A stretch of 64,000 nt of DNA, from the NCBI RefSeq assembly GCF_001885215.1, contig NZ_CP018091.1, positions 1,612,001 to 1,676,000 on the forward strand. The letters run 5' to 3'. The stretch is from Synechococcus sp. SynAce01 (lineage in GTDB: Bacteria; Cyanobacteriota; Cyanobacteriia; PCC-6307; Cyanobiaceae). A program made the translations under genes and the position numbers. Within the stretch, counting starts at the first letter, position 1. Every line of letters begins with the position of its first letter. This document shows positions 5,622 to 19,169 of this stretch, piece after piece. The notes beneath the pieces are model-generated. The model saw only the letters and a program-made list of their open reading frames with translations, was not told the origin of the DNA and made no database searches.

Positions 5622-8600
5622 TTATTCAACCGCGAGGGGGGCTTGCGTCGAGAGGATGGTGTGGCAGCGGCCGCAGAGGCGACCATGCACCGTGGCGTTG
5701 AGCACGTGCGCGCTGATGTCGGTTTCGTAGTGCCAGCAGCGCTCGCACTTCTCGCCCCTGGCCCGGGCAATGCGCAGGGTGATTCCCCCTTCGCTGGCTT
5801 CTGCCAGTAGCTCGGCAAACGGTTCGGCCAGTTGATCGCGGCCTTCGCCGCTGCCAATCTCCAGCTCCGACACCAGCAGCCAATCGGCCAGGTTGTCCAC
5901 ATCCGCTGAGGCGCTCTGCTCAAGTTGGTCCAGGGCGGAGCGCAAGGCCGCCGCGCCTTCGCCCTGGACCAGCTCTAGCTGCAGCCTGGTTTCCAGGGAG
6001 GAGCCGATGCCGCCCTGTTCTTGCTTGGGTTTGCGGCAGGCCTCCAGTTGGCGGTTCACCTGGCTGCGCAGTCCCTGCAGGGTGCTGATCGTCGCCTGCT
6101 CGGCGGGCGTGAGCGTCCACTCGGCTGCCGATTGGGGCCAGCCGCGTTCGAACACCGAGGTCTCGCGCACGGGGTAGGGGAGGTTCTGCCAGATGTCTTC
6201 AGCCATGTGGCAGAGCACCGGGGCAATCAGTCCGGCCAGGCGCTCCACCACCAAGGCCATTACGGTCTGGCAGCTGCGGCGGCGCGGCGAATGCGCCGCG
6301 CTCACGTAGAGGCGGTCTTTGGCGATGTCGAGGTAGAAGTTGGAGAGATCCACAACGCAGAAGTTCTGCAACGCCTGGAAGAAGCGGTAGAACTCGTAGC
6401 GCTCGAAATCAGCGCTCACCTCCTCGATCAGCTCGGCGGTGCGATGCAACATCCAGCGATCGAGCAGGGGCAGCTCGGCCATCGGGACCGCTGAACCGCC
6501 CTCGCTCTGCGGCCTGGGGTCGAAATCGTGCAGATTGCCCAGCAGATAACGGGCCGTGTTGCGCACCTTGCGGCTCACATCGGCCAGCTGTTTGACGATC
6601 CCCGGCCCCAGCGGCACATCGGCGGAATAATCCACCGAACTCACCCACAGCCGCAGCACATCGGCGCCGAAGGCGGGCTCCTGTTTCTCGTTGCGGCCGC
6701 CTTCAACGATCACGGCCGGATCGACCACATTGCCCAGGGATTTGCTCATCTTGCGACCCTTCTCATCGAGGGTGAAGCCATGGGTGAGCACCCGTTTGTA
6801 GGGCGCCTGGCCGTTGACGGCCACCGACGTGAGCAGGCTGCTCTGGAACCAGCCGCGGTGCTGGTCGGAACCCTCCAGATAGAGATCGGCGGGGTAATGG
6901 AGGGGGCTCGGGTCAGCGCCTTGGCCGCCTGGGGCCGCCAGCAGGTCGTCGCCTGTCGCCTTGGCAGGGTCCAGGCCTCCCAGCACCGCCGCCCAGGAGG
7001 AGCCGGAGTCGAACCAGACATCCATGGTGTCGCTGCCCTTGCGCCATTGATCGGCCTCGCCGGCCAGCTCCGGTGGCAGCAGCTCGGCCTCGCTGCGCTC
7101 CCACCAGACGCCGGCACCGTGCTCGGCGATCAGGGCCTGGATGTGATCAAGGCTGGCGGCATTGAGCAGCACCGCCCCGTTGTCACGGTGATAGAACACG
7201 GGGATCGGCACGCCCCAGGTGCGTTGGCGGGAGATGCACCAGTCGCCCCGATCGCGCACCATCGCCTCGATCCGGTTGCGGCCGCTGGTCGGCAGCCACT
7301 CCACCGAGGCGATCGCGGCCATCGCCTCGGCGCGGAAGCCCTCCACCGAGGCAAACCACTGCTCGGTGGCGCGAAAGATGGTCGGTTTCTTGGTGCGCCA
7401 GTCGTAGGGGTAGCGGTGGGCGTAGCTCTCTTGCTTGAGCAGGGCGCCGGCCTCTTCGAGGGCGGCGATGATCGCGCCGTTGGCGTCTTTGAGCACGTTC
7501 AGCCCGGCGAACGGCCCGGCTTCCGCCGTGAGGGTGCCGCCGGCATCCACCGGGCAGAGCACCGGCAGGTTGTACTTTCTGCCGGTGTTGAAATCATCCA
7601 CGCCGTGGCCGGGGGCGGTGTGGACCAGGCCGGTGCCCGCTTCGGTGGTGATGTAGTCGCCGCCGATCACCACCGGGCTGCTGCGATCCAGCAACGGATG
7701 GCGATAGGTGAGGCCTTCGAGCTGCTGTCCCTTCACGGTCAGCAGGGGTTCCAGGCGCAGCCCCAGGCTGGTTTGCAGGCTCTCCACCAGCGCCGCCGCC
7801 ACGATCAGGTGCTGGCAGTTCGCCGCGGCTCCATCTGCCGCGCCATCGGTCCGACTGGCGCGGCAGATGGCGTAGTCGAGCGTGCCGTTCACGGACACCG
7901 CCAGGTTGGCCGGCAAGGTCCAGGGGGTGGTGGTCCAGATCGCCACCGCCAGGGAGGCGGGCCCCAGGGGGGCAAGCCCAGAGCGATCGCTGCTCGGGCT
8001 GATGCCAACGGCGGCCAGCGCCTTGGCCATGTCCTCTGGAGCCGCGGTCACCGGGAAGGCCACGTAGACGCTCGGGGACGTGTGGCCGTCGGGATAGTCG
8101 AGTTCGGCCTCGGCCAGGGCGGTGCGGGAGCTGGGGCTCCAGTGCACGGGCTTGAGGCCCCGGTAGATGTGGCCCGCCAGCACCATCTGCCCGAAGACGC
8201 CGATCTGGGCCGCCTCGTAGCCCCTCTGCAGGGTGAGGTAGGCGTCGTCCCAGTCGGCCCAGATCCCCCAACGCTGGAAACCGGCCTTCTGGCCTTCCAC
8301 CTGCTCGAGGGCATAGGCGTGGGCCTTCTGGCGCAGGGCGATCGGGGTGAGAGCGCGGCGCTCCTCACTGCCCATGCTCTGCAGCACCTTCAGCTCGATC
8401 GGCAGGCCGTGGCAGTCCCAGCCCGGCACGAACCGCGCCCGCCGGCCCCGGAGCAGGGCGTATTTGTTGATGATGTCCTTGAGGATCTTGTTGAGGGCGT
8501 GGCCCACATGCAGGGCGCCATTGGCATAGGGCGGCCCGTCGTGGAGCGTGAACACCGGCCCGGGGTTGTCACGGCTCAAGCGTTCGTAGAGCCGCTCCTG

Positions 8601-14125: not shown

Positions 14126-14269
14126 TCAGCCGAGACCGATCTGAGTCAGGATGCCTTGGCCGGTCAGCAATTCAGTGCCGAGGCCGATCACAAAACCAAG
14201 CATGGCAAGACGGCCATTCCAGGTTTCGGCAAATTCAACGAAGCCAAAGCGGGAGGTGGGCTCAGTCAT
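14126..14269 (-). CDS. hli: high-light-inducible protein (Hlip/SCP, one-helix chlorophyll-binding protein)
   Basis: 47 residues from ATG at 14269 (MTEPTSRFGFVEFAETW). It contains the chlorophyll-binding helix pattern ExxNGRxAMxGF (AETWNGRLAMLGFVIGLGTE), followed by LLTGQGILTQIGLG, a typical picocyanobacterial Hli ending. Hlips bind chlorophyll and carotenoid in pairs and protect photosystem assembly under light stress. The start is doubtful: upstream codons in the same frame read REFVTDRNGGVKVDEVHPLNP, which also looks like an Hlip leader, but no ATG, GTG or TTG lies in frame there until 14494. Confidence 0.85.
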   Translation of the reverse strand: MTEPTSRFGFVEFAETWNGRLAMLGFVIGLGTELLTGQGILTQIGLG

Positions 14270-14357
14270 GGGATTGAGTGGGTGGACTTCATCAACCTTA
14301 ACACCACCATTGCGATCTGTGACGAATTCCCGCGCCTTTGCTTCTGCTTCCCCTGAA

Positions 14358-14978
14358 TCAGGGTGCCTTTGGCGTGGCCTTGGCTGGCTCGACCACTGCA
14401 GGGGGTGTTCTGGGTGAGGCTGTTGTCCCGGCTGCTCCTGGGATTGGCTGGGCGTTGGCGCAGAGCGTTGCGGCCATCCGGTCCTCGCCGCCATTGGTCT
14501 TGGACTCTTCGATGGAGAGCGGCAAGCGCCACCCCTGCCAGGCCTCAGTGCCCGTCCTGCGGTTCAGCTTCAGGCTGGCGCAATGAACTGCCACGCTGCC
14601 CAGCACCGGGGGATCGCCACATTCCACGCTCGTGGAACGCACCGCTCCTTCGCTTAGGCGCCAAGCACTCCAGTCGTAACGACAGGGGCCAAAACTGCGC
14701 CAGCGCGGTGCCTTGAGCTTGCGGATCCGCTCGAGCAGCTCTTTCTCTTTTGCGCTCAGATCCTCAGCCGGTGGTTTCCCTGCTTCGACAGCAGGTTTGG
14801 CGTTCGGCTGTTCCGCTGGCTTGGGATCTTGTTCGCTCTGCAGCGTTGGCGGCGTTGTTCCCTGGGCAAGGGCATCACTGGCCCAGGGAACAACGCCAAT
14901 ACCAAAAGCTTGAAGTAAGCCGGTGATCAAACCGGGAACAAGCCACTTTGCGGAAATTCCCATTCCGAGAAACGCCAC
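14358..14978 (-). CDS. hypothetical secreted protein
   Basis: 206 residues. N-terminal signal peptide (AKWLVPGLITGLLQAFGIGVV, cleavage probably after ALA), then a Pro/Lys/Glu-rich linker, a short charged helix (DLSAKEKELLERIRKLKAPRW) and a domain with WRSFGPCRYDWSAWRLSEGAVRS and CGDPPVLGSVAVHCASLKLN. The Trp-rich pattern with three Cys suggests a small disulphide-bonded periplasmic domain. A disordered Ala/Pro tail ends it. I do not recognise the family. A perfect 17-bp inverted repeat lies in the signal-peptide coding region. The stop is about 90 bp before the Hlip start on the same strand. Confidence 0.65.
   Translation of the reverse strand: MAFLGMGISAKWLVPGLITGLLQAFGIGVVPWASDALAQGTTPPTLQSEQDPKPAEQPNAKPAVEAGKPPAEDLSAKEKELLERIRKLKAPRWRSFGPCRYDWSAWRLSEGAVRSTSVECGDPPVLGSVAVHCASLKLNRRTGTEAWQGWRLPLSIEESKTNGGEDRMAATLCANAQPIPGAAGTTASPRTPPAVVEPAKATPKAP
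14851..14897. repeat. perfect 17-bp inverted repeat inside a coding region
   Basis: GGCGTTGTTCCCTGGGC at 14851-14867 is exactly mirrored by its reverse complement at 14881-14897, with a 13-bp loop. It falls across the signal-peptide cleavage region of the secreted hypothetical protein. Confidence 0.95.
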
Positions 14979-15065: not shown

Positions 15066-15440
15066 TCAGTCTTCGTCGCTTTCTTCGCTGCCGACAGGGA
15101 CTAGGCGAATCTGCTTGCGCCCCAGCTTCAGTTCGAACTCATCACCGGGCTTGAGGTCGAGAAGCCCAGTGTAGGCCTTGCCGACCAGCAGATTTCCATT
15201 GCCCTGAACCGTGGCGATGTAGCTGAGTTTGCGGCCAGCTTTGAGACCAACTCCGCCACCGTTGCCATTGCCAAGGGTGACTCCCTTGGCTTCGAGCAGG
15301 GCCTCATAGAACGCGGTGAAATTGAGCCGCTCACTGCCATCCTTCTTGGAGCTCAGGTAACCGCAGCTACGCACCAGGTCAGATTTGGAAGCATCGCCAA
15401 GTTCCTTGACTTTGCTCAACAGTTCGGTGCCAGTCAGCAT
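15066..15440 (-). CDS. cyAbrB family transcriptional regulator
   Basis: 124 residues from ATG at 15440 (MLTGTELLSKVKELGDASKSDLVRSCGYLS). The C-terminal AbrB-like DNA-binding half is clear: SYIATVQGNGNLLVGKAYTG and LKPGDEFELKLGRKQIRLVPV. cyAbrB proteins are abundant, cyanobacteria-specific regulators of carbon/nitrogen balance and redox responses. The acidic tail (SEESDED) is family-like. The gene is monocistronic, with about 230 bp to the divergent HAD gene and no clear operator. Confidence 0.85.
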   Translation of the reverse strand: MLTGTELLSKVKELGDASKSDLVRSCGYLSSKKDGSERLNFTAFYEALLEAKGVTLGNGNGGGVGLKAGRKLSYIATVQGNGNLLVGKAYTGLLDLKPGDEFELKLGRKQIRLVPVGSEESDED

Positions 15441-15670
15441 GATGTTTGAATTGGTTCGCTTTATCAATGTAGCAATCGATGGGCCTCTCTTCAATGGCAA
15501 CCGCCAGGCTGTTTTTCGCTTTGCTGTGAAGACTCCTAGCTCGCCCAGCTTGTATCAACACTTCCGATCGGCATGGCCGCCAGGCCCATTTTTGGCGCCA
15601 TTTCTTTTAAATCGTTAGTGTGAGCTTCCAGACGCGGATGGGTTGGGGTTCCCACCGCTCGATCCTCGTG

Positions 15671-18469: not shown

Positions 18470-19105
18470 ATGGTCACGAGTCCGTTTCGCCATACCGGTC
18501 GCAGTGATGCGATTCGAGATGTCCTTGAAACCAGTTATCGCAATCACAACTTGCTGCACATCACAGCAGGTAGCGCCGTTCCTTTGCTCAAGAATTGCAT
18601 CTGGCTGGTGGTGCGGGGAATGGTGAAGCTGGAAGCCGTCACCATCCATGGCGATCCCCTGTTGCTGGGGCTGGCGGGGCCCAATGAGCCGTTCGGTGAA
18701 CCGCTTACCAACGTGCTGGCCTTTGAAGCGTTCACGCTCTGCGATAGCGACATGCTCTGTTTGTCCTGTGCCGAGATTGAGCAATCGCCCCATCTCGCCA
18801 TGGCGATGATGCAGGCAGTGGTCAGCCGTTATCACCAGGCGGAAACGATGTTGTCCTTGCTGGGGTTGCGCCGGGTTGAGGAGCGAATTCGCGGTTTTCT
18901 GGAGCTGCTGGCCCAGGATTACGGCCAGGTCTGCGAGCAGGGTCTGCGGCTCAACCTTCGCCTCACCCACCAGGAACTAGCGAGTGCCCTCTGCACCACC
19001 CGCGTCACGGTGACCCGGGTGCTTGGTCTACTCAAAGACGAGGGCTGGCTTCAGATGGATGGCCAACGTCACCTGGTGATCAGCCATCTGCCGAAACAGA
19101 GCTGA
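18470..19105 (+). CDS. ptrA: Crp/Fnr-family regulator, PtrA-like
   Basis: 211 residues: a degenerate cyclic-nucleotide-binding-type sensor domain (LLHITAGSAVPLLKNCIWLVVRGMVKLEAV) and a C-terminal winged helix (LRLTHQELASALCTTRVTVTRVLGLLKDEGWL). The position between sphX and phoB-phoR matches ptrA of marine Synechococcus, a secondary regulator of the phosphate-starvation response acting after PhoB. The cNMP-pocket Arg is not evident, so the ligand is probably not cAMP. phoB follows after 64 bp. Confidence 0.8.
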   Translation: MVTSPFRHTGRSDAIRDVLETSYRNHNLLHITAGSAVPLLKNCIWLVVRGMVKLEAVTIHGDPLLLGLAGPNEPFGEPLTNVLAFEAFTLCDSDMLCLSCAEIEQSPHLAMAMMQAVVSRYHQAETMLSLLGLRRVEERIRGFLELLAQDYGQVCEQGLRLNLRLTHQELASALCTTRVTVTRVLGLLKDEGWLQMDGQRHLVISHLPKQS

Positions 19106-19169
19106 TTTGGCAGGCAGAGCTGAAGCGGCAGATGGATCACCTAGCTTGAAGGATCAGATTGCCGACTGC

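Follow-up and report, generated by a model that had tools for sequence, protein, structure and literature searches.

The window analysed here is a stretch of 64,000 nucleotides from the genome of Synechococcus sp. SynAce01, which is assembled as a single contig of 2,750,634 bases and is 99.85% complete. On its minus strand, the window carries a gene for a secreted hypothetical protein at 14358–14963. The open reading frame extends to 14978, and the ATG at 14963 is the likely start codon judging from the letters alone, giving a protein of 201 amino acids. With the start and the cleavage site placed by eye, the N-terminus reads MGISAKWLVPGLITGLLQAFGIGVVPWASDALA up to the cleavage site and QGTTPPTLQS after it. 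We found no Pfam or NCBIfam family for the protein (best Pfam E 0.12, below the cut-off), and a search of solved structures with a family profile gave a best E of 0.017 over a short stretch, which we judged to be chance. With 710 bases as the query, a distant DNA search of plasmids gave no match, and neither did one protein scan of viral contigs or the first protein scan of genome contigs. Homologues of the protein were identified in 51 of 400 genomes of the family at E <= 1e-9, with its own genome counted. The gene is flanked on one side by an open reading frame with an AbrB-like domain (15066–15500, minus strand, PF14250). On the other side lies an open reading frame with a weak match to a chlorophyll-binding family (14126–14494, minus strand, PF00504, 21.8 bits against a cut-off of 22.3), which we read as a putative high-light-inducible protein.

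The signal-peptide region of this gene contains a perfect inverted repeat. Its arms, at 14851–14867 (GGCGTTGTTCCCTGGGC) and 14881–14897 (GCCCAGGGAACAACGCC), pair at 17 of 17 positions around a spacer, or loop, of 13 nt at 14868–14880, all on the minus strand. Both direct reading and independent repeat finding recovered the structure, confirming what the first-pass annotation had described. Extension past one mismatch adds two further pairs, giving 20 nt at 95%. Both arms are in frame. Numbered from the ATG at 14963, the upstream arm (14881–14897) starts at codon 23 and codes G-V-V-P-W-A, the end of the hydrophobic stretch of the signal peptide. The downstream arm (14851–14867) starts at codon 33, codes A-Q-G-T-T-P and straddles the likely cleavage site between ALA and Q, as placed by eye, together with the first mature residues. 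At 14932–14945, 48 nt before the upstream arm, we observed a third near-copy of the arm on the minus strand (a TTGTTCCC core within TGGCTTGTTCCCGG). The 8-mer TTGTTCCC and its complement occur five times in the window, three of them within the stretch of the repeat. The near-copy possibly reflects a further local copying event, or chance.

The RNA of this region folds at -42.2 kcal/mol with a z of -7.9, and none of 200 shuffles reached equal stability. This predicted fold agrees with the strong mRNA hairpin proposed about 25 codons past the start, with arms at codons 23 and 33. Direct reading of the sequence revealed no U-tract after either arm on either strand, and the site is absent from the list of a terminator scan. 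An intrinsic terminator is ruled out by the missing U-tract behind the stem, as had been said from the start. No Rfam family reached its cut-off at the site, the top match being an animal microRNA model (27.6 bits against 82).

The hairpin in homologous genes

We compared the 300 nt preceding the conserved core in 31 loci, comprising the SynAce01 locus and 30 homologues for which the searches gave a locus, with the weaker homologues ranked below L007 (L008–L032) left out. Arms of at least 12 bp were found in two of the 31 loci, the SynAce01 gene and its homologue in the congener G003; in the remaining 29 the arms were at most 10 bp. The hairpin of the G003 homologue (L004) consists of GCCCAAGAGCAA and TTGCTCTTGGGC, 12 bp perfectly paired with a spacer of 15, and lies at a different place in the signal-peptide region; its best 67-nt window has a z of -5.6. 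Among the 18 readable named loci, which come largely from the same genomes, one has arms of at least 12 bp, the Synechococcus sp. CS-1325 record (L119), which is probably the G003 gene itself; L132, which lacks a match to the core, was dropped. In G001, the nearest relative (80% complete), the protein found no match, and the DNA matches cover only the AbrB-like and chlorophyll-binding-type neighbours.

Checking for conservation and for compensatory changes had been proposed in the first-pass annotation. The comparison could be made, and neither the sequence nor the position of the hairpin is conserved in the homologues; it left no homologous stem in which compensatory changes could be counted. 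The annotation had also held that homologues lacking the repeat would point to a neutral, recent event. This is the situation in 29 of the 31 loci, a count to be read with the warning that signal peptides change fast and that fourfold sites have diverged far. Signal peptides evolve fast in general. Only 32 of 74 fourfold sites in G003 and 28 of 80 in G002 are identical to the SynAce01 gene, a divergence so large that the ancestral state at the repeat therefore cannot be read. By our own count, the arms contain nine silent third positions, and all nine are still paired. This suggests that the repeat is young relative to the split of the genus, or that it has been re-homogenised.

Inverted repeats across the genome

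To place the repeat among others, we counted perfect inverted repeats with a spacer of 3–40 in 464 kb of the same genome (the window and 20 segments of 20 kb, about 17%). The window is part of this sample, and its three repeats (17, 15, and 12 bp) were thus not drawn blind. The 17-bp repeat is the longest in the sample. Arms of at least 12 bp occurred 20 times against a mean of 2.7 in 40 dinucleotide shuffles, and arms of at least 14 bp seven times against a mean of 0.175 in 40 such shuffles with spacers up to 40. An arm of 17 appeared in none of the 40 dinucleotide shuffles of the 464 kb, in which the longest arm anywhere was 16.

The excess was also found within coding sequence. In 357 open reading frames covering 411 kb, for which we simply took the longest open frames of at least 150 codons, there were 16 arms of at least 12 bp, compared with 3.4 after synonymous shuffling and 2.25 after shuffling of codon order (20 shuffles each). 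For arms of at least 14 bp, the count was five, compared with 0.25 and 0.30, respectively, again in 20 shuffles each. Neither the 20 synonymous nor the 20 codon-order shuffles of the 411 kb produced an arm of 16. A less clean control, one dinucleotide shuffle of the genome sample with spacers up to 60, gave three arms of 12 and two of 14. In 361 kb of the congener G003, we counted 15 arms of at least 12 bp (spacer 3–60) against six in a single shuffle, which makes it probable that more than one strain shows the excess. The excess is real, and the 17-bp repeat stands at its upper end.

We also redrew codons by genome usage with the protein held fixed. Exactly these 17 pairs arose in 1705 of 200000 draws, and with the first 70 residues fixed, some arm of at least 17 arose in 247 of 20000. 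Such arms appear among redrawn codons because the two peptides are themselves complementary. At the repeat, the codon choice thus has a rarity of about 1%; the remaining improbability is that the peptides are complementary at all. The judgement that 17 exact pairs are very unlikely by chance holds in that no shuffle reaches 17, though the redraws with a fixed protein do in 247 of 20000.

The repeat is present once. A DNA search of the genome on both strands matched the site only to its own place. The arm 12-mer GGCGTTGTTCCC has three exact matches in the 2.75-Mb genome, two of which are the arms themselves. The first-pass annotation had suggested searching for other copies of the arm, and this search returned no second copy in the 2.75 Mb.

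Comparison of repeat arms with relatives

Besides the 17-bp repeat, the genome sample holds 19 repeats with arms of at least 12 bp. We compared four of these with relatives, a small set hand-picked for readable proteins. One lies in ileS, the gene of isoleucyl-tRNA synthetase, at 7831–7870 (minus strand, 15 of 15 pairs, spacer 10 nt). Its first arm is identical in G001 and matches at 13 of 15 positions in G003. The second arm is degenerate in G001 and, in multiple alignments, overlaps an in-frame insertion (12 nt relative to G003) that is absent in G003, G008, and G002; the pairwise alignment with G002 places the gap in the first arm. Another, a perfect 14-bp repeat (L085:15669–15719, minus strand), lies in a gene which we take to be radA-like from its motif. 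Its first arm is identical in G001 and matches at 9 of 14 positions in G003 and 10 of 14 in G002, like its surroundings. Its second arm matches G001 at 12 of 14 positions and overlaps a stretch that is gapped in G003, G002, and G008; the pairwise alignment with G003 runs through this arm without a gap. In G001, the radA-like gene also has a short tandem expansion (GEAIGEAIGEAI) after the stretch of the second arm. The ileS repeat at 7831 and the radA-like repeat would fit the pattern left by a template switch with insertion, a reading that the alignments support with the caveats just given.

The other two repeats are not associated with an indel. The C-terminal ileS repeat at 5926–5971 (minus strand, 12 of 12 pairs, spacer 22 nt) is the third coding repeat in the window. 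In one of its arms, 5 of 12 positions are different in G001, compared with 12 of 201 outside the arms; against G003, the numbers are 4 of 12 and 47 of 201. The second is a 14-bp repeat (L088) in a gene that is presumably of a chorismate-binding type. Here the comparison with G001 gives differences at 4 of 14 positions in one arm and 5 of 152 outside, and that with G003 gives 4 of 14 and 16 of 152. Both would be consistent with the pattern left by arm homogenisation, with clusters that are clear only against G001 and are unpolarised.

A further repeat of 15 bp with a spacer of 11 lies in a glycosyltransferase-like gene (L095:3747). Searching with it gave no match in the three other genomes of the genus, and the only hits were a second gene of the same genome and three places in G038. 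By our own reading, the repeats at L097:10651 and L087:13489 look intergenic or lie at a gene edge. We also observed an inverted repeat of 21 nt at 76% at 19084–19135 of the window, at the end of the open reading frame 18470–19105. It has CCATCTGCCG at its start, and the same ten letters open the ileS repeat at 7831. This is possibly a terminator region whose sharing of the ten letters is coincidental.

We next consider the two arms of the 17-bp repeat. The downstream arm aligns without a gap to both same-genus homologues, G002 and G003. The peptides here are QGTTPPTLQS in SynAce01 and QPTAPPPLQS and QVTAPPPLQS in the congeners, with Q, T, and P common to all. The upstream arm falls in a gap in G003 (L004), L053, and L057 in the protein alignment, and for G003 also in the DNA alignment. 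There is no gap at this arm for G002 in the protein alignment, and the pairwise alignment with G003 has only two gap positions. In pairwise alignments, differences to G003 number 12 of 17 in the upstream arm, 8 of 17 in the downstream arm, and 65 of 127 outside; for G002, they number 8 of 17, 6 of 17, and 60 of 130. As raw counts, these differences go in the expected direction and lie close to the background, and are suggestive at most. Given an origin by template switching, we lean towards the upstream arm (GVVPWA) as the probable inverted copy and the downstream arm (AQGTTP) as the probable source. Since no close relative has the gene, the alignments do no more than suggest which way the copying went.

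Origin of the repeat

A local template switch during replication, of the quasipalindrome type, probably produced the repeat. The polymerase would have left its template and used the complementary or nascent strand to copy, in the opposite sense, a stretch of about 17 nt. On its return, a reverse-complement copy would have remained 13 nt away from the source. The frame would have stayed open, and the new residues GVVPWA would have been hydrophobic enough for a signal peptide. General hydrophobicity is all that a signal peptide requires, so such a change would be tolerated. The reading is based on the perfect repeat, its single copy, its absence in the homologues compared, the general excess of repeats, and the sister cases in the same genome, in which one arm is old and the other inserted or altered. 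A perfect or near-perfect inverted repeat with a short spacer, beyond what chance yields, is expected of such an event, and the SynAce01 gene carries one. The suggestion that the repeat might be a remnant of a small inverted duplication gains support from its single copy, the lack of such a hairpin at this site in the homologues compared, the excess in coding sequence, and the sister arms that overlie insertions. We infer a template switch with the AQGTTP arm as source and no selected function, as none of the observations calls for one.

The repeat might instead be a functional hairpin in the mRNA, slowing or regulating translation as the signal peptide exits the ribosome, or controlling mRNA decay. 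Such a function could explain why so stable a fold (-42.2 kcal/mol, z -7.9) sits at codons 23–38, why the signal-peptide region in G003 also has a stable hairpin (12 bp, spacer 15, z -5.6), and why all nine silently changeable third positions in the arms still pair. However, 29 of the 31 loci, including that of the genus member G002, lack arms of at least 12 bp, the G003 hairpin differs in both sequence and position, and no Rfam family comes near its cut-off (27.6 bits against 82). Moreover, perfect pairing without covariation is expected from a recent copy. We regard a regulatory hairpin as unlikely. A strong stem at codons 23–38 may slow ribosomes somewhat, with no conserved design visible. 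The proposal that the hairpin controls translation thus fares poorly, as its sequence and position are unconserved and there are no compensatory changes to count; the 12-bp hairpin of G003 keeps it at low odds. The same G003 hairpin speaks against a purely neutral view, which would have to leave the presence of two such hairpins in the same gene as an apparent coincidence.

Chance could also have made the two stretches converge, by ordinary substitution combined with the choice of codons. Much of the complementarity is already present at the level of the protein, as the codon redraws indicate (1705 of 200000 and 247 of 20000), but this complementarity of the two peptides is itself the improbable part, and an arm of 17 is absent from the dinucleotide (0 of 40), synonymous (0 of 20), and codon-order (0 of 20) shuffles. 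Chance convergence is therefore quite improbable. A palindromic mobile repeat inserted in frame, as in the Rickettsia palindromic elements, would account for an in-frame palindrome within a coding region; yet the genome holds no second copy, and the other listed repeats of at least 12 bp each have their own, different arm sequences. We consider this origin hardly credible, and have rejected a Rickettsia-type palindromic element or a REP-like repeat, since multiple related copies were not found. An assembly or sequencing artefact, such as a fold-back chimera, is likewise a very remote prospect: the genome is a single contig at 99.85% completeness, the frame stays open, and G001, a separate assembly, has altered second arms of the ileS 7831 and radA-like repeats.

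Template switching has precedents in several systems. In E. coli, it is documented at quasipalindromes with thyA and lacZ reporters under the Ripley model (PMC7202029). Those cases share with the SynAce01 gene bacterial replication and, within a gene, an inverted repeat that is perfect or has been improved; they differ in that the starting imperfect palindrome was known and the event was scored in the laboratory, whereas the ancestor of the present repeat is inferred, and any palindrome in it may have been slight or missing. PMC8794818 describes perfect RNA hairpin stems that arise from one template-switch event. There, as proposed here, a perfect stem can form from the reverse-complement repeat that a single event gives. 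The genes in that work encode RNAs (mammalian microRNAs and rRNA), whereas ours encodes a bacterial protein and shows no sign of the stem being used. In yeast coding genes, arm homogenisation in coding DNA leads to clusters of amino-acid changes (PMC8604942), in strains with reconstructed recent ancestors of a kind that the SynAce01 gene lacks. Nematomorpha mitochondria and the Rickettsia palindromic elements (PMC6649704) offer coding inverted repeats in proteins that still function. The Nematomorpha repeats, however, reach 142 bp per arm and appear maintained, and the Rickettsia elements are described as transposable, while the present repeat has 17 bp and a single copy. An excess of stem-loops over shuffled sequence, mostly within coding regions, has been reported for 40 bacterial genomes (PMC1590033), and inverted repeats in bacterial genomes are also treated in PMC10434271.

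Among the matches listed by a broad literature search on hairpins, signal peptides, and translation, we saw no obvious precedent, a result that proves nothing. A search on Synechococcus template switching and inverted repeats listed only a review among its matches, from which we claim no wider absence. Judged by title and the start of the abstract, the matches listed in a broader search did not include a bacterial coding study of this kind.

The kind of event proposed for the repeat in the SynAce01 gene is a known one, and the repeat is most likely a product of ordinary mutation. Its lesson is one of caution, since even a perfect hairpin that catches the eye within a gene need not have a regulatory role. 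A broader idea, which we hold only tentatively and with more doubt than belief, is that in-frame inverted micro-duplications by template switching could be a regular source of new protein sequence in this picocyanobacterial lineage, with the ileS and radA-like insertions and new signal-peptide ends arising as backward copies that are later eroded. Taken with the sister cases, the repeat suggests that bacterial proteins gain insertions through backward micro-copying, and the rate could be measured in this genus. The general excess of repeats, and its possible role in the small protein insertions of the lineage, are worth pursuing.
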